Source of the DNA: a virus
Virus record (IMG/VR): IMGVR_UViG_3300030117_007745
Location: 48,655 to 112,654 of that record
Direction: 5' to 3' (one strand)
DNA: 64,000 bases
Positions 39,197 through 52,127 of this stretch are shown piece after piece. Under the pieces are notes generated by a model. It worked only from the letters and a program-made list of their open reading frames with translations. It had not been told where the DNA came from and made no database searches. The position numbers were made by a program, and so were the translations under genes. How positions within the stretch are numbered: position 1 is the first letter of the stretch; each line of letters begins with the position of its first letter.

Positions 39197-39699
39197 TCTT
39201 CTGCAAGTGTAGCTCTATGTATTTCTCTGTATCTATCTAATTTTTCTAACTCTGGTATTGCAGTTCTTTGAATTGTATCTTGAACAAGAATTAAATACTT
39301 CTCTTCTATCGAATCGCTATTTTCTCCTAAACTAAAAATAGGAACAATGTCTAATTCCGAACAAGTGTCTAGTTCTTTTTTTGGGATTGTTGTGTTTTTT
39401 GCTGTACCACCATTACCAAAGAAAGTTGGCCTAACCTTTTTAAGAGCATCGCAAACAGTGCCGTCTGAGTCATCAAATTCCACTACTTCGCTGACATATG
39501 GGACATCTTCTAGGGTTATTTTACGAACATCAAAATCAAAAAGTAAATAACCTTTATTTTTTATGACCCATTCGTCACTATTTAGGGCTACAACAACGTC
39601 ACCGTATGAACTGGCATGTTTGAGTAATAATAAATGCCCGAGATGGAGAGGATTAAAAGCTCCGCTTATTAATATTTTTGGTTTTCTATCAAAGTTCAT
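39193..39699 (-). CDS. Cytidylyltransferase-like nucleotidyltransferase
   Basis: 168 residues. ILISGAFNPLHLGHLLLLKHA contains the HxGH active site (His19, His22). Second half GNGGTAKNTTIPKKELDTCSELDIV resembles the sugar/polyol-phosphate nucleotidyltransferase end. Related by fold to the enzyme at 9346 and to the central domain of the protein at 46762. Substrate unknown (sugar, glycerol or NMN). Confidence 0.75.
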   Translation of the reverse strand: MNFDRKPKILISGAFNPLHLGHLLLLKHASSYGDVVVALNSDEWVIKNKGYLLFDFDVRKITLEDVPYVSEVVEFDDSDGTVCDALKKVRPTFFGNGGTAKNTTIPKKELDTCSELDIVPIFSLGENSDSIEEKYLILVQDTIQRTAIPELEKLDRYREIHRATLAED

Positions 39700-40316
39700 G
39701 GAGTGATAATATCATCAACGAGACCATACTTTAAACAAGTTTTTGCATCCCACCATAAATCTCTCTTTAGGATATCTTTAATTTTTGTTTTTGGAATTTT
39801 TGTATGCTCTTCATAAATCTTAATAATCCTTTTCATTAACATTTCATTGTTTTTCATATCATCTTTCATGTCTTCAAATTTTCCCCACATGCCTGATGAT
39901 AATTGATGAATTAACATAAAAGCATGCTCATTGATATATCTTTCATTAGCGACGACACTCATGATTGTCGCAGCGGAAGCTGCACATCCATCTATGATCG
40001 AGACGACAGGTGCTGGACAGTTTCTAATATAATCAACAGATCCAAATCCTGCAAAAACAGACCCTCCATAAGAATTAATATGAAGATTTACTTTTGGAGT
40101 CTCGGACAAATGGTACAATTGCTGTATATTTTTAAGCTTGTGGCCAGTTGTATGCAAAAGTTTATTTAAAACTAAATTATCTTGCCTTGTTACGCCAGAA
40201 TAAAAATAAATTTTATTATATTCTACAGATACTCTACTATCATCAGCTGATCCAGCAGACATTGTGGGCTCTCCTTTTTCAATATCTTTTAATTTTGTGT
40301 TCCAATATTCGTTCAT
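39696..40316 (-). CDS. clpP: ClpP-family serine protease
   Basis: 206 residues. Ser114 in GCAASAATIM, His137 in FMLIHQLSSG and Asp186 in KRDLWWDA form the ClpP triad; INSYGGSVFAG is the oxyanion strand. A 30-residue N-terminal extension precedes the core. May serve as a phage Clp peptidase for host Clp ATPases, or as a prohead protease. A tmRNA whose tag ends ALAA lies 3 kb away. Confidence 0.85.
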   Translation of the reverse strand: MNEYWNTKLKDIEKGEPTMSAGSADDSRVSVEYNKIYFYSGVTRQDNLVLNKLLHTTGHKLKNIQQLYHLSETPKVNLHINSYGGSVFAGFGSVDYIRNCPAPVVSIIDGCAASAATIMSVVANERYINEHAFMLIHQLSSGMWGKFEDMKDDMKNNEMLMKRIIKIYEEHTKIPKTKIKDILKRDLWWDAKTCLKYGLVDDIITP

Positions 40317-40335
40317 GTTTACCTCTTTTATTTAG

Positions 40336-40409
<74 letters not shown>

Positions 40410-40410
40410 T

Positions 40411-40761
40411 TTATAATATAATATTCTTCTGGAGATGGTCTCCTGCCTTTCTCATATCAGTTTCTAATTTATGAAGATAAGCTGCTATTAATATAAATCT
40501 AGCAACAAAATCTATTTCAGTTTTTGATAGGATTGTACCAAAAATTCTACCTTCTTTGTTTTCATGATAATAAACAGTATTGAACATATACTGCTCTGTT
40601 TGAATTCCCACTCTCTCAGCTAAATCTTTATAAGATTGATGGCAAAATTTGCATTCATTCACCCAGACATTAGAATGCCTTCTTACTTGTGAATAATCTT
40701 GTGCTTGTGCAGCAAAAGGAAGGAAAAAAAGAATAGAAATAAATTTTACAATGTTCTTCAT
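40411..40761 (-). CDS. Exported small protein with CxxCH heme-type motif
   Basis: 116 residues. Signal peptide MKNIVKFISILFFLPFAAQA with likely cut after Ala20. Cys37, Cys40, His41 in NECKFCHQSY match the c-type heme attachment motif. A Met about 20 residues later could be the second ligand but alignment is needed. The remainder is helical (EIDFVARFILIAAYLHKLE). It ends adjacent to tRNA-Arg. It may be a c-type cytochrome or a chance zinc-like pair. Confidence 0.55.
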   Translation of the reverse strand: MKNIVKFISILFFLPFAAQAQDYSQVRRHSNVWVNECKFCHQSYKDLAERVGIQTEQYMFNTVYYHENKEGRIFGTILSKTEIDFVARFILIAAYLHKLETDMRKAGDHLQKNIIL

Positions 40762-40781: not shown

Positions 40782-41933
40782 TTATTTTAATTTCAAGAAC
40801 TTTTTTAATTCTTCTATTCTTTTCTTTGGAGACTTTAATCCTCCAACAATTGTATAAGCAACCAACTTTTCTCTTTCAGGATCTTCATAGATTCCCCTGT
40901 GAATGATTGCTCCACCAGTTAAGGTAGCCAAAGTATCGAACCCATATTCAATATTATCCATGAGGCCGGGAACTGTTTCATATAGCTCTGTACCACCAAC
41001 AATAATAGATGCGGCACCCTTTGCAGAGGTTAAATCAAAACCGCTAGCGAGGAGTGTTTTTTCTAAGTTATTACGGAGGCCCTGAGAAACTGAAGTTGGG
41101 CTTTCTGGATCTTTGATTGTTGTAGCGCCAAAAATCATGCAACCAGCTGTTTTCATAATACTTTCATAGTCCGCTGGATCAAACACTGTATAATCAGAGT
41201 TTTTTGTGCATAACAAATTAAAAATATGAAAAAGGCCGGCAACTGTATTGTTGAGCGTTGGCCAAAATTGCTTAACTGTTAGTTTAGAGTATAATTTTTT
41301 AATTTTATCATTATCGATAATTATTAAAGGAGCGAACTTTCCTTTTTCTGCTTGATCACAAAGTTCTGTCATCCTATTGTAAGAATTTTCAGCCACAATT
41401 GGGGATGCACATTCTCCTGTCGTTGGAAGAGAGGCAATAACTCCAACTCTTTCATTTGGATTTTCCACTCCAATATAAGTGAAATATCTTTTTGCGGTAT
41501 CCAATAGAGACATGACACTACCGCCGCCTGTTCCACCGCCAACACCAACGCAAATTAAAATACGGTCGATGTTATCTCCAAAAATTTCTTTGAATTTATT
41601 AAATATTTCTTGGCTTCTGTCATCGAATGCTTCCTTTGAGACGGCATGATTCTTGCCGGCACCGGAAGCGCCTTCATAAACCAAATGGTGTTTGTGGTTT
41701 TCTGGAAGTCCTAAGTGTGTAAGATCAGATTTGGCCAAATTAAATGCAATTGTCTTTCTATATCCTAAATCAAAGAATGCTTTTGCCATTCTTCCGCCAC
41801 CTTGACCGGATCCAACAATACCATAGCGAATGGCTCCTCCGCTTTCGTCTTCCACAAGATCCATCTTTGATTGTTCAATCTCTTCAACATCAATATCTTC
41901 AATATCTAAAGTAGGCAAATTTAAATCATTCAT
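40782..41933 (-). CDS. Tubulin/FtsZ-superfamily GTPase
   Basis: 383 residues. Nucleotide loops GSGQGGGRMAKAF and the tubulin signature CVGVGGGTGGGSVMSL. The T7-like loop FDPADYESIM keeps two acidic residues for GTP hydrolysis. Phage relatives (PhuZ, TubZ) form filaments that centre DNA or move capsids. An N-terminal acidic extension (DIEDIDVEEIEQSKM) is unusual. RBS AGGAG; an ACTATTTA box lies 30 bases upstream. Confidence 0.8.
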   Translation of the reverse strand: MNDLNLPTLDIEDIDVEEIEQSKMDLVEDESGGAIRYGIVGSGQGGGRMAKAFFDLGYRKTIAFNLAKSDLTHLGLPENHKHHLVYEGASGAGKNHAVSKEAFDDRSQEIFNKFKEIFGDNIDRILICVGVGGGTGGGSVMSLLDTAKRYFTYIGVENPNERVGVIASLPTTGECASPIVAENSYNRMTELCDQAEKGKFAPLIIIDNDKIKKLYSKLTVKQFWPTLNNTVAGLFHIFNLLCTKNSDYTVFDPADYESIMKTAGCMIFGATTIKDPESPTSVSQGLRNNLEKTLLASGFDLTSAKGAASIIVGGTELYETVPGLMDNIEYGFDTLATLTGGAIIHRGIYEDPEREKLVAYTIVGGLKSPKKRIEELKKFLKLK

Positions 41934-41987: not shown

Positions 41988-42464
41988 TTATTTTGAATGC
42001 TTATCTGCAATTGAAGCAGCAGCGAAAGCGTAAGGCTTTATTCTACATTCGTAACCAGAGCCTTTAACATAGCCAACCAACATGTTGGCGAGATGACTAG
42101 TTCCTTCGTTATTTTCTTGAGGACTTATATCTAGATGAAGTTCTAATTTTGCAGAGGGTATCAATTCTATAATGTTATTTGCTAAAATTATGGTATTTTC
42201 TGCTTCTTTTATCATTCTAATGCTTAATTCTGGAAATTTCTTCTTATTTAGTCTAGTTTTTGTATAGAAATATCTACCACCTTGTTGATTATCTGCTCCA
42301 TATAAACAGATAGCAGTAGAAAATATACATTTATTTTTTATAAAAAAAGAATCAGTACCAATATAAACAGTACCATTATACTTGCAGTGTATTTTAATCT
42401 GTTCTATAATATCATTAAATTGTATGATATCTTTAGAACCAGTATTCCAAGTAGTTTTTAACAT
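41988..42464 (-). CDS. RNase H-like protein (YkuK/DUF458 type)
   Basis: 158 residues. VYIGTDSFFIKNKCIFSTAICLY, LSIRMIKEAENTI, LELHLDISPQENNEGTSHLANMLVGYVKG and CRIKPYAFAAASIADKHSK follow the DUF458 RNase H-like arrangement, with Asp in TDS and Asp in LDIS and the final ADKHS. Nuclease activity not proven. Divergent from the plus-strand gene at 42531. Confidence 0.72.
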   Translation of the reverse strand: MLKTTWNTGSKDIIQFNDIIEQIKIHCKYNGTVYIGTDSFFIKNKCIFSTAICLYGADNQQGGRYFYTKTRLNKKKFPELSIRMIKEAENTIILANNIIELIPSAKLELHLDISPQENNEGTSHLANMLVGYVKGSGYECRIKPYAFAAASIADKHSK

Positions 42465-42530: not shown

Positions 42531-42875
42531 ATGAAAAAACAATCAAAAAATAAAAAAAGTTACAGCATTATTAGAAAGTTACGCAACGAAGGAAAACTAC
42601 CAGAAGAAGCTGAAATATTTCTCTCTAACATATCATTAGAAGATTTGATCGGTTTAAAATTAGAATTGGCCAGTAAACCAATCGGAGGAAAGCTGTTTGG
42701 AATTCCAATTTGGAAATCAATACCATTTATTGTTAGAGATGCTCTTCTAAAAACTGCTATTTCAGTTTGCAAAACAAAAATAGAAGCTGCTAATTTCTTA
42801 GGAATGGATGTCGATAAATTAGACAAACTCCTCAGAAAGTATAATACAAAAGATTTTTTTGAAAAAAACGATTGA
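42531..42875 (+). CDS. Small DNA-binding protein with Fis-like helix-turn-helix
   Basis: 114 residues. The C-terminal part (RDALLKTAISVCKTKIEAANFLGMDVDKLDKLLRKY) is similar to the Fis-type HTH: helix, a turn at E-A-A-N-F-L-G-M-D, recognition helix. A basic N-terminus (KKQSKNKKSYSIIRKLR) may bind DNA too. A transcription or nucleoid role is likely. No clear Shine-Dalgarno sequence. Confidence 0.65.
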   Translation: MKKQSKNKKSYSIIRKLRNEGKLPEEAEIFLSNISLEDLIGLKLELASKPIGGKLFGIPIWKSIPFIVRDALLKTAISVCKTKIEAANFLGMDVDKLDKLLRKYNTKDFFEKND

Positions 42876-42899
42876 CATATTATCATAAACCTGTATAGT
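42872..42899 (+). promoter_or_regulatory. Sigma70-like promoter for the leader RNA and tmRNA
   Basis: TTGACA (42872-42877) and TATAGT (42894-42899), 16-base spacer. The -35 box overlaps the end of the preceding gene. The context TATAGTTATgATTAGG resembles the DUF3307 promoter. Confidence 0.65.
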
Positions 42900-42905
42900 T
42901 ATGAT

Positions 42906-43080
42906 TAGGAAGTTGAAAGGCGTTACTTATAACAATAATAGAGGTTAACCTTCCAAGCCCTTAACGAAGGGGATAAATATTGAAGAAGGGATAGCACGAC
43001 GGCTCTGCGAGTATCCGTTCGCTTTTTAACAATGCCCCCTCGTTGGCTTAGGATGGCGAGGGGGCAAAGTTCTTTGAAAT
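42906..43080 (+). ncRNA. Structured leader or small RNA upstream of tmRNA
   Basis: No gene is here. Visible hairpins in order: GGAAG pairing with CTTCC enclosing a GTTA/TAAC stem-loop; CCCTT-AACG-AAGGG; GGATA with TATCC around GCACGACGGCTCTGCGAG; and a perfect ten-pair stem of TGCCCCCTCG with CGAGGGGGCA at about 43032-43065, not followed by a T-run. It is either the 5' leader of pre-tmRNA or a separate RNA. It does not match 6S, SRP or RNase P RNA motifs I know. Confidence 0.5.
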
Positions 43081-43082
43081 AT

Positions 43083-43407
43083 GGGGGTGTACAGGTTTCG
43101 ACTGGGTAGTGAAACTAATGTGTGCAAGGCAGAGGGCAGCGAAGGTCTCTGTAAAAACGCTGAAATTAATAAGTGCAAATACTGACACTTACTCTGAATA
43201 CGCACTAGCTGCGTAATCGGGGGTAGCCATACCTTCTTAACCAAAATGGCATATGGTTTCTTATTTCCTAAAAATGAGTGGTGCGAAAGAAGGCTTGTGG
43301 AAAATAAATTGTCTGTGTTGTTTTCCAGTATTTTACAGACTAACCTTGTGAACGACTCATTAGCAGAGTTATTTAGGACGGGGGTTCGATTCCCCCCACC
43401 TCCACCA
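43083..43407 (+). ncRNA. ssrA: tmRNA
   Basis: 325 bases. The 5' end GGGGGTG pairs with CACCTCC at the 3' end, followed by A and an encoded CCA. The 5' TACAGGTTTCGACTGG element and the 3' GGTTCGATTCC T-arm are canonical. The tag frame (43175-43216) is GCA AAT ACT GAC ACT TAC TCT GAA TAC GCA CTA GCT GCG TAA, giving ANTDTYSEYALAA. It rescues stalled ribosomes and marks proteins for ClpXP/ClpAP. Confidence 0.94.
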
Positions 43408-43438: not shown

Positions 43439-44575
43439 ATGAGCAATATACACAAAAATTGGAAAGAATTTATTATAAATGAGGCTGGTTTAAATAAAAT
43501 TAGGCAAGATATGTCTGATTATGATACAGCCTTTATTACAGCATTTCGTGGCGATATAAATGACAAAACTATGTGCGTTTATACACCTCCTTCAGAAGAA
43601 GAACTATCCGAAAGAGATAAAATGGGAAAAAGAGGCAAGAGCAACAAAAGAAACAATAAAGAACTCTCAGCTTTTCTTCTTAGTCAAGGATACGGTATCA
43701 AGAATGTTCAAGGTTCTTATATTGAGAATTTTGGATCTATTGACCCAGAAAAGATCCCCAGAGAAGTTAAAGAAGCAAGTTTCTTTGTTACTAACTTAAA
43801 AAATGACCCTGAATTTGCGGAACAAATAATAAATCTTGGAAAAAGATTTTGTCAGGATTCGGTCATTGTTGTTCCAAAGGGAGAAGAAGGATACATTTAT
43901 GGAACAAACAAAAGTAAATACCCCGGACTAGACCAAAAAGAAACTGTTGGTAAATTTATGGGCGGCGAAACTGGAGAATTTATGTCTCGTATAGGTGGCC
44001 GGCCCTTTGTTATGAAGGAAGATGAAGAAACGCAGACATATGAGGATTTTCCCGGAAAACAGAGGCAAGCCATAAAAATTATGGCCAATAGAACAGATAG
44101 AGAAATAAACGAAATGCACATGGTGTATAATATAAGTGAAGCAGATTTATCAGCCTATGATAATAGCGGAAAGACCACTCTATATCATTACGCACCAGTT
44201 GATTCTGAAGATATAAAAGTTGATCCTAGTATGTTTGGAAAGCAATCTTATTCTAGAAGAGAAAAAGAAAGGTCCACATATCCTAGATCTTTCTTTTATG
44301 TAAATTTAGATCAAGCCGAGAGTCAAGTAAAACAGGGCAGTACTCTATATTCCCTTAACATTCCAACCAATAAGTTGTATAGTATAAAAAGTGATCCAGA
44401 TGGGCTGGTAAAATCTATAAGGCATCCCACGTATGGTTTTAGAAATGATATCGAATGGACTGAACTTTTTGAAACAATACATGAAAATTACCTTGGCGCT
44501 TATTATTCTACCCCCTCTATGGACCTTGTGGTTCTGTTTGAGCCAATTACAGCGAGCAAGATGGAGAAAGAATGA
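43439..44575 (+). CDS. Putative head-cargo protein with T4-CTS-like N-terminus
   Basis: 378 residues. The opening NWKEFIINEAGL resembles the T4 internal-protein leader and has an I-N-E site. The middle has an unknown domain (SAFLLSQGYGIKNVQGSYIENFG, SFFVTNLKNDPEFAEQIINLGKRF). The C-terminal 130 residues (TTLYHYAPVDSEDIKVDP, SRREKERSTYPRSFFYVNL, LYSLNIPTNKLYSI) faintly recall ADP-ribosyltransferase-like folds, but no catalytic triad can be stated. No ribosome site; ACTATTTA precedes it. Confidence 0.5.
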   Translation: MSNIHKNWKEFIINEAGLNKIRQDMSDYDTAFITAFRGDINDKTMCVYTPPSEEELSERDKMGKRGKSNKRNNKELSAFLLSQGYGIKNVQGSYIENFGSIDPEKIPREVKEASFFVTNLKNDPEFAEQIINLGKRFCQDSVIVVPKGEEGYIYGTNKSKYPGLDQKETVGKFMGGETGEFMSRIGGRPFVMKEDEETQTYEDFPGKQRQAIKIMANRTDREINEMHMVYNISEADLSAYDNSGKTTLYHYAPVDSEDIKVDPSMFGKQSYSRREKERSTYPRSFFYVNLDQAESQVKQGSTLYSLNIPTNKLYSIKSDPDGLVKSIRHPTYGFRNDIEWTELFETIHENYLGAYYSTPSMDLVVLFEPITASKMEKE

Positions 44576-44850
44576 AAACAGGTGACATAGTATTTCAGAA
44601 TTACTCTGGGATACACAGATACGGAAAAGTTATCGAAAAAAAAGAAAATCTAAAAGGTGATGGCTGGGCTTGGTTTTCTATTAATTGGGTTAATGATGAA
44701 AAATATATTGATGCTCAAAAATGGAAAGCGAGACTAAGAGGTTTGAATGATAACGCATACCTTCCAAAGTATTATCGCGCAGACGATATCCAACTAATAG
44801 ACCTTAACAAAACACTAAGAACTCTAATAAATTTAAAAGAAGCGTCATGA
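44572..44850 (+). CDS. Small uncharacterised phage protein
   Basis: 92 residues, beta-rich start (GDIVFQNYSGIHRYGKVIEKKENLKGDGWAWF) like an SH3-type barrel, then a charged tail. Joined by ATGA overlaps to both the preceding gene and the endolysin, so translationally coupled. Function unknown; possibly a lysis accessory by position. Confidence 0.5.
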   Translation: MKTGDIVFQNYSGIHRYGKVIEKKENLKGDGWAWFSINWVNDEKYIDAQKWKARLRGLNDNAYLPKYYRADDIQLIDLNKTLRTLINLKEAS

Positions 44851-45707
44851 AACAATATACACTTAGAAGCGGAGACAAAGGCCAAGAAGTTAAGAAATTA
44901 CAGTTGGCCATCGGAAACCTATTAGCAGATGGTGATTTTGGCCCCGCTACCGAAAATGCTGTAAAAAACTATCAATCAAGCCACAACTTAGTTGCTGATG
45001 GAATTGCAGGAGTTAAAACTTTAACTTCATTAGAAATTCCAGTGGAAATAGGAGTAGATCTTAGCCGCCACAATGGCGATGTTGACTTCGAGACCATGGC
45101 AAGAGCAGGCGTAAAATACGCTTGGATTAAGTGCTCAGAGGGTACAACGCACGTAAATCCGGGTTACGAATTAAAGTTTAGACAAGCTAGAGAAGCCGGC
45201 ATACAGGTCGGTGGATATCATTTTTCTAGACCAGATACATATCCTAGTTTACAGGATGCTATTGATGAATCCCTCAACTTCCTAGGCGCTCTTTCAAAAG
45301 TTGGCTTTTATAAAGGAGACTTACTGCCTGTTTTAGACGTTGAAGATGGATTAAAGACTGATGATAAGTATAATGTTGAATGGACGCTAAAATGGCTTGC
45401 ATCTGTTGAAAAATCTTTAGGTGTTCGACCTGTAATATATACTGGAAAATGGGCCTACGATCTTTATTTAAGAAATGGAGACCCTGACCATCTACAAGAA
45501 TTGAAGACTTATCCTCTTTGGGTAGCATCTTACAATGATGGAATAGAACCAGAAAGAATGGTTAGCCTTTGGGATGAATGGGATGTGTGGCAGTGGACAG
45601 GAGAAGGTCAAGTTCCCGGTGTTAAAGGAAAATGTGATATAAACTGGGCTGCTGGAGGTGTTTTGCCAACGCTGACTTATAAAAGAGAAATTAATATATG
45701 CGGCTAA
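44847..45707 (+). CDS. GH25 endolysin with peptidoglycan-binding domain
   Basis: 286 residues. Residues 1-60 are a PG_binding_1 domain (LRSGDKGQEVKKLQLAIGNLL, DGDFGPATENAVKNYQ). Residues 66-280 are a GH25 muramidase: IGVDLSRHNGDVDF (Asp71), GGYHFSRPD, LLPVLDVEDG (Asp164, Glu166), and DVWQWTGEGQVPGVKGKCDINW. Cleaves peptidoglycan for lysis. No signal peptide, so a holin is needed; none is obvious nearby. Overlaps both neighbours. Confidence 0.9.
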   Translation: MKQYTLRSGDKGQEVKKLQLAIGNLLADGDFGPATENAVKNYQSSHNLVADGIAGVKTLTSLEIPVEIGVDLSRHNGDVDFETMARAGVKYAWIKCSEGTTHVNPGYELKFRQAREAGIQVGGYHFSRPDTYPSLQDAIDESLNFLGALSKVGFYKGDLLPVLDVEDGLKTDDKYNVEWTLKWLASVEKSLGVRPVIYTGKWAYDLYLRNGDPDHLQELKTYPLWVASYNDGIEPERMVSLWDEWDVWQWTGEGQVPGVKGKCDINWAAGGVLPTLTYKREINICG

Positions 45708-51131: not shown

Positions 51132-52127
51132 TTAAATTCTATCTTTATTTCCGGAAAAGTAGACGTTGGTGACTGGCGAAGAAAGTGAGATGTGGGAGGT
51201 GAGATATCTTTTCACTTGGTCTTCTTCTTCAAACTTTATAAGTTGATTGCCATTGTAGAATTTCCATTGGCCGACTTCCCTTAAAACATCCATCTTATTA
51301 AAAACAAGATCTGTTACACCATTCATGCGAACTGCTTTTAAGAGATTATCAAGATCCATCCAATTACATTGTCTTTTTCTGCCAGTTGTAGCGCCAAATT
51401 CTTCTCCGATTAGTTGCAGAGCATTAAAGACATCACCGTCTGGTTGGAAACGCTTTGCACCGACATAAGTCTCATAAATCTTAGCAACTCCCCACACTTT
51501 GCGAATAGCCTGTGGGGGTACTCCGTTTAAAAGAGCGGCAGCAGTTGTGCAATGAGAAGAGGTTACATAAGGATAATCTCCATGATCAATATCCAATCCA
51601 AAGCCCTGAGCGCCTTCAAAAAGAATTTCTACATTTGGTTTTGAATATAATTCCTCATACATATCAACAAGATAAGGCTTTAAGCAAGGCATGTCTTCTG
51701 CTCTAAATCCGCTTCTATTGTATTTATCGCGATAGGCCGGCCCATTTCCGCGTTTAGTGGTGCCAATTTTTGAGTCTTTACCATCTTCTTCTTTATGCGA
51801 TTTAGTAATTACATGGGCATTTTTTGCAATCGAAACTAAAGTAGATGCTGGAATACCTGCGTCTTCTAGTTCTTCTATTTCTTTAAAGAATTGATCTGGG
51901 TCTACAACACAGCCCGGTCCAATAATTGATTCAATTCCATAGAAAACTCCGGCCGGGATGTGGTGAGTTACAAATTTTTTACCTTCGTGATAGATGGTAT
52001 GGCCGGCATTGCAACCTCCATTAAATCTAATGACATGTGTGTAATTTCCCTTTGAACATAGGTGGTGGGTAATCTTACCCTTGGCTTCGTCTCCGTGCTG
52101 AAGACCAAGGACAACATCTGCGATCAT
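51132..52127 (-). CDS. purA: Short PurA-family adenylosuccinate synthetase
   Basis: 331 residues against about 430 for bacterial PurA. Retains the catalytic GDE (VVLGLQHGDEAKGKI with Asp), SKIGTTKRGNGPAYRDKYNR, YPYVTSSHCTTAAALLNGVPP and the GTP-binding TDLVFNKMDV. IMP or dGMP may be the acceptor: the diaminopurine enzyme PurZ is also short, but classic PurZ is reported to lack this Asp. A clear promoter lies upstream. RBS GAGAGG. Confidence 0.85.
   Translation of the reverse strand: MIADVVLGLQHGDEAKGKITHHLCSKGNYTHVIRFNGGCNAGHTIYHEGKKFVTHHIPAGVFYGIESIIGPGCVVDPDQFFKEIEELEDAGIPASTLVSIAKNAHVITKSHKEEDGKDSKIGTTKRGNGPAYRDKYNRSGFRAEDMPCLKPYLVDMYEELYSKPNVEILFEGAQGFGLDIDHGDYPYVTSSHCTTAAALLNGVPPQAIRKVWGVAKIYETYVGAKRFQPDGDVFNALQLIGEEFGATTGRKRQCNWMDLDNLLKAVRMNGVTDLVFNKMDVLREVGQWKFYNGNQLIKFEEEDQVKRYLTSHISLSSPVTNVYFSGNKDRI

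Follow-up and report, generated by a model that had tools for sequence, protein, structure and literature searches.

Does an uncultured virus carry a working ribosome-rescue RNA of its own, and with which partners would such an RNA act? tmRNA rescues stuck ribosomes and marks their unfinished proteins for destruction. The question was raised by a 64-kb window (the whole stretch of DNA analysed here, positions 48655-112654 of a virus record of 112,654 bp in total), in which the initial annotation had placed a complete phage-encoded tmRNA and had suggested that it belongs to a module, encoded entirely by the phage, for ribosome rescue and degradation.

ARAGORN called a tmRNA at exactly 43083-43407 (plus strand) with the tag ANTDTYSEYALAA, and the Rfam model RF00023 matched along its full length (positions 1-374 of 374), scoring 141.6 bits (E-value 1.8e-55) where the curated cut-off is 47 bits. 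The two programs thus agree on the gene that had been claimed, a one-piece ssrA of 325 nt. Since the same gene was found in five further phage records, the match is not due to chance. The acceptor stem GGGGGUG pairs with CACCUCC and its third pair is G3-U70, a G-U pair at this position being the alanine identity element. The T arm reads GGGGG-UUCGAUU-CCCCC, the CCA end is encoded and the D-loop-like stretch is GGUUUCGAC. The tag reading frame (43175-43216, plus strand) opens at 43175 with the resume codon GCA, which follows UAAGU, and closes with a UAA stop inside helix 5. The acceptor stem, T arm, CCA and tag frame are therefore as intact as had been described, and the tag does end in ALAA, the canonical ClpXP-type ending. 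All the parts of a one-piece tmRNA were present: a full-length model match, a tRNA-like domain, an alanine resume codon, a degron-like end and a stop.

The source of the locus is a T4-like myovirus and not host DNA. The record, 112,654 bp long, is a fragment that stops just past the portal gene; genes for the large subunit of the terminase, a T4 gp20-type portal, baseplate wedge and tail fibres lie at the other end of it, and this gene set rules out host contamination. The structural and packaging genes thus share a record with the tmRNA, and the same locus occurs in other phage records. The gene order around the tmRNA is the same in the relatives, and this synteny, kept across five to six phage records, disposes of the concern that host chromosome had been misassembled with phage. 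Among isolates, Flavobacterium phage immuto (46%) and Microcystis phage Mel-JY01 (42%) come nearest in their terminases, and in both no tmRNA scored above the Rfam cut-off; a DNA search against annotated phages gave no match. Five records searched with the prohead protease and capsid protein of a Flavobacterium phage gave no matches either, because the record stops just past the portal; the head genes were seen instead in a close relative, L054 (portal 86% identical), which runs on into genes for a prohead protease of the T4 gp21 type and a major capsid protein of the T4 type.

An exact T-arm pattern and a degenerate tag pattern retrieved four further IMG/VR records with an identical tag, and a fifth relative, G020, was reached through the leader RNA described below. 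The tag is ANTDTYSEYALAA in five records, including the window, and ANTNTYVDYALAA in G020. In the six-record alignment, standard pairing was found in 99.8% of 426 base-pair cells, a percentage biased towards the window since the secondary structure was drawn up from its sequence; the two-sided changes at 7 pairs are not a consequence of that choice, and were matched in 0 of 500 shuffles, with slid controls giving 0-1. The acceptor stem, the T arm, helices 2 and 5 and two pseudoknot regions contain these changes. Compensatory change was thus seen in helix 5 and the pseudoknots, of which pseudoknots 1 and 2 were invariant and uninformative. The third acceptor pair is G-U in all six records and CCA is encoded in five; the tmRNA of relative G004 (L038) ends in CTA, so that copy would need repair of its CCA end. 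The tmRNA is 95-99% identical among the five closest records, and the surrounding region about 83% in two aligned relatives.

Between the window and G020, 10 of the 13 tag codons differ, 7 of them synonymously. Four codons of the YALAA degron are changed, all without altering the amino acid, which argues that the tag is translated and the degron kept. Together with the preserved pairs and the two-sided changes, this indicates that the gene is selected, and the alignment clearly speaks for selection on the tmRNA in at least six related viruses. We therefore regard the locus as very probably a genuine, functional phage-borne one-piece tmRNA of an environmental T4-like myovirus lineage.

As judged from the gene itself, its most likely role would be ordinary trans-translation with the SmpB, AlaRS and ClpXP of the host. 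SmpB (PF01668) was absent from the five records G000-G004, all of them fragments, in a search that found it in 10 of 14 control genomes, the other four being archaea, and no ClpX-type unfoldase (AAA_2 domain) was found in five records, again all fragments. With neither protein found in the fragments, the tmRNA must rely on the host. Transcription would start at the putative promoter at 42872-42899 and the RNA would then be trimmed; host AlaRS would charge it with alanine via the G3-U70 pair, host SmpB and EF-Tu would bind it, and it would enter ribosomes held up on truncated mRNA. The unfinished chain would gain ANTDTYSEYALAA and would then be degraded by the host's ClpXP or a protease like it. 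We infer the benefit to the phage, because a tmRNA of the host ought to cover this task anyway: during lytic infection a second one may keep ribosomes free while mRNA is cut and host genes are shut down.

A different use of the same RNA would be as a decoy or regulator, whose main effect would be to titrate SmpB or the function of the host tmRNA, or to give proteins another tag by which degradation is evaded or altered. There is a precedent in mycobacteriophage DS6A, whose form comprises little beyond the tRNA-like domain and inhibits tmRNA in E. coli (PMC11915505, PMC4131195). A decoy, however, needs none of the tag frame, resume codon, stop and degron, all of which are intact here, and the last five codons of the tag have changed only synonymously. 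Since the tag is preserved at the codon level, we consider this use improbable.

In a further reading, the tmRNA and the nearby ClpP gene would form a dedicated tagging and degradation module, independent of host proteases. The gene some 3 kb away is real: a ClpP-like (S14) serine protease is encoded at 39696-40316 on the minus strand, 2.8 kb from the tmRNA in the window, with several genes between them (PF00574, 106 bits). Its triad S114/H137/D186, aligned with solved ClpP, is invariant in five phages, in which the gene is kept at 82-83% and always lies 3-4 kb from the tmRNA. L054 has a separate gp21-type head protease by its portal, so the ClpP-like protein is unlikely to serve as the main one, which would leave room for a role in degradation. 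However, it scores below every curated ClpP cut-off (TIGR00493, 57.5 bits against the 308.6 required), and its top scores are to ClpP-related head maturation proteases (phrog_94; NF045542, 109.8 bits, itself short of the cut-off of 120). AlphaFold, given five close sequences, yielded a low-quality model of the protein (pLDDT 52). The gene is outside the tmRNA transcription unit, on the opposite strand and in a unit of its own, and the linkage is not specific to the pair, since the entire neighbourhood is conserved. As the records are fragments, the failure to find SmpB in these five does not prove that the phage lacks it, yet nothing supports a complete module; the missing AAA_2 unfoldase and the sub-cut-off ClpP scores likewise leave a phage-only degradation module without support. 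The claim of an entire module was thus not upheld, and we think it quite unlikely that the two genes work as a unit apart from host proteases.

That the gene is a functionless relic of a host tmRNA, left by prophage excision or misassembly, as might be imagined since tmRNA genes serve as integration sites and prophages hold fragments of them (PMC9004378), has next to no probability, the compensatory changes having already largely refuted it, in a full gene with one and the same location in six phage records, alongside a T4-like gene set, and with no close cellular copy either among 399 genomes of the Pseudomonas phylum or in an exact-tag scan.

That scan covered 84,980 cellular genomes and gave no match to the tag; the BLAST search of the tmRNA against the 399 genomes, run without a positive control, gave nothing at an E-value of 1e-12. 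In a relaxed tag scan the matches listed were mostly from Pseudomonas, and among them the cellular tag ANDETYGEYALAA of Pseudomonas and its relatives shares 10 of 13 residues and its length with the phage tag. The likeness is no evidence of a host; the phage tmRNA itself resembles that of Pseudomonas and its relatives mainly at the tRNA-like 3' end.

The genes lying between the ClpP-like protease and the tmRNA are tRNA-Arg (40335-40409), a 116-aa ORF (40411-40761), an FtsZ/TubZ-like GTPase (40782-41933, conserved at 81-96% in relatives) and an RNase H-like protein (41988-42464), all on the minus strand, and a 114-aa ORF (42531-42875) on the plus strand. On the other side, a gene with an S-adenosylmethionine lyase family domain (43439-44575, plus strand; PF23780, 31.7 bits, cut-off 28) starts 31 bases past the tmRNA and adjoins it in four relatives at 84-86%. 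The domain, possibly anti-restriction, lies in the first half of the 378-aa protein; Alishewanella phages and the Lak megaphages of Prevotella have similar stretches. It is followed by a 92-aa ORF and then a GH25 endolysin gene (44847-45707, plus strand). Further away in the window, an adenylosuccinate synthetase family gene of PurZ length (51132-52127, minus strand, 331 aa) matched phrog_1211 with 247 bits but fell short of the cut-off of the NCBIfam PurZ model; the gene suggests that this T4-like phage may have 2-aminoadenine (Z) in its DNA. A block of sugar genes (7732-34522, minus strand) encodes nucleotide-sugar epimerases, an aminotransferase, a UDP-GlcNAc 2-epimerase, a nucleotide-sugar dehydrogenase and several glycosyltransferases.

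Upstream of the tmRNA, a sigma-70-like promoter, TTGACA-16-TATAGT (42872-42899, plus strand), agrees with the consensus at 11 of 12 positions, and the relatives have similar boxes in the same position. About 50 nt past it begins a conserved leader RNA of about 80 nt (42949-43027, plus strand), kept in all six records and in a seventh contig that breaks there. Its invariant runs are CCCUU-ACGAAGG, GAAGGGAUA-CA-GACGGC and CCGUUC, and it ends in a weak terminator-like hairpin (43007-43022) followed by U5; after this U-rich run comes a GC-rich hairpin of about 12 pairs (43033-43066, plus strand), 16 nt ahead of the tmRNA 5' end. Among the six records covariation was found in two pairs, one in the terminator-like hairpin and one, a compensatory change of G-C to A-U, in the GC-rich hairpin. 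The 177-nt upstream region folds better than its shuffles (z -3.0), largely due to the GC-rich hairpin. No Rfam family matched the leader, and for a glutamine riboswitch (glnA or downstream-peptide RNA) there was no Rfam match in it up to E-values of 5 and 10. A collection-wide pattern search of viral contigs found the leader only in this lineage, and the tmRNA follows it wherever the contig continues.

The leader may be an attenuator, a riboswitch, a small RNA in its own right or a signal for processing. A plain terminator was considered as well. The hairpin is a weak one, with -0.8 to -4.7 kcal/mol, and three of the six records show this weakness; we commit ourselves to none of these readings. 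Tentatively, and with the odds against it, the leader, perhaps together with the hairpin at 43033-43066, could represent a new structured class that responds to the condition of the infected cell by gating transcription of the tmRNA and the SAM-lyase-family gene. Such a switch would parallel the glutamine riboswitch to which the Melnitz phage tmRNA is linked, although the leader RNA is unrelated to it.

Phage tmRNAs as such are already known. The initial annotation had called them uncommon and had named some mycobacteriophages, which overstates their rarity: in one survey a tmRNA was present in 402 of 18,146 phages (PMC9004378), ssrA occurs in mycobacteriophages Bxz1, Cali, Catera, Wildcat and others and also in Bacillus phage G (PMC4131195), and tmRNAs are carried by huge phages, some of which encode SmpB too (PMC7162821), as well as by Streptomyces BE phages (PMC11237712). 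Close in kind are the T4-like marine phage Melnitz, a phage of OM43, and the pelagimyophages (PMC9004378), which like the present phage are T4-like aquatic phages with a tmRNA linked to a regulatory RNA; the tmRNA of Melnitz is, however, a permuted two-piece molecule with a glutamine riboswitch, whereas the present one is a one-piece molecule with a leader outside Rfam. The mycobacteriophages and phage G (PMC4131195) have a phage ssrA in common with this uncultured T4-like lineage, but the phages are unrelated and the tag differs. With the huge phages (PMC7162821) it shares a phage-borne rescue RNA, but some of those encode SmpB, and none was found here.

Two other records gave tmRNA matches. 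The 484-kb phage LR756508 (L246:1501-1944), which has a related terminase, contains a divergent match of 72 bits; the predicted tag, GRRKPLSW, is of a non-ALAA kind and may be misread. A distant relative, known from a 190-kb T4-like phage record, has a tmRNA-like gene (L249:1501-1954; G005:C1:80966-81419) that matched RF00023 with 96.7 bits and has the tag ANNDVEIDDFAIAA and an odd T loop, AGUCGGAG. In place of its 3' pseudoknot region is a Shine-Dalgarno-led ORF of 61 aa (MSNKESGYGIRADLL...VVNR), so that one gene is nested within the other; the ORF had no PHROG, Pfam or annotated-phage match, and this arrangement was found in one record only.

The present locus thus adds a new example to the known phage tmRNAs, with a possibly new leader. 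An uncultured T4-like lineage joins the phages equipped with a ribosome-rescue RNA of their own, and in this case the degron is under visible coding selection. The leader hints that regulatory RNAs tied to phage tmRNAs arose more than once, and the six homologues offer a clean system for asking why a phage needs a second tmRNA beside that of its host.
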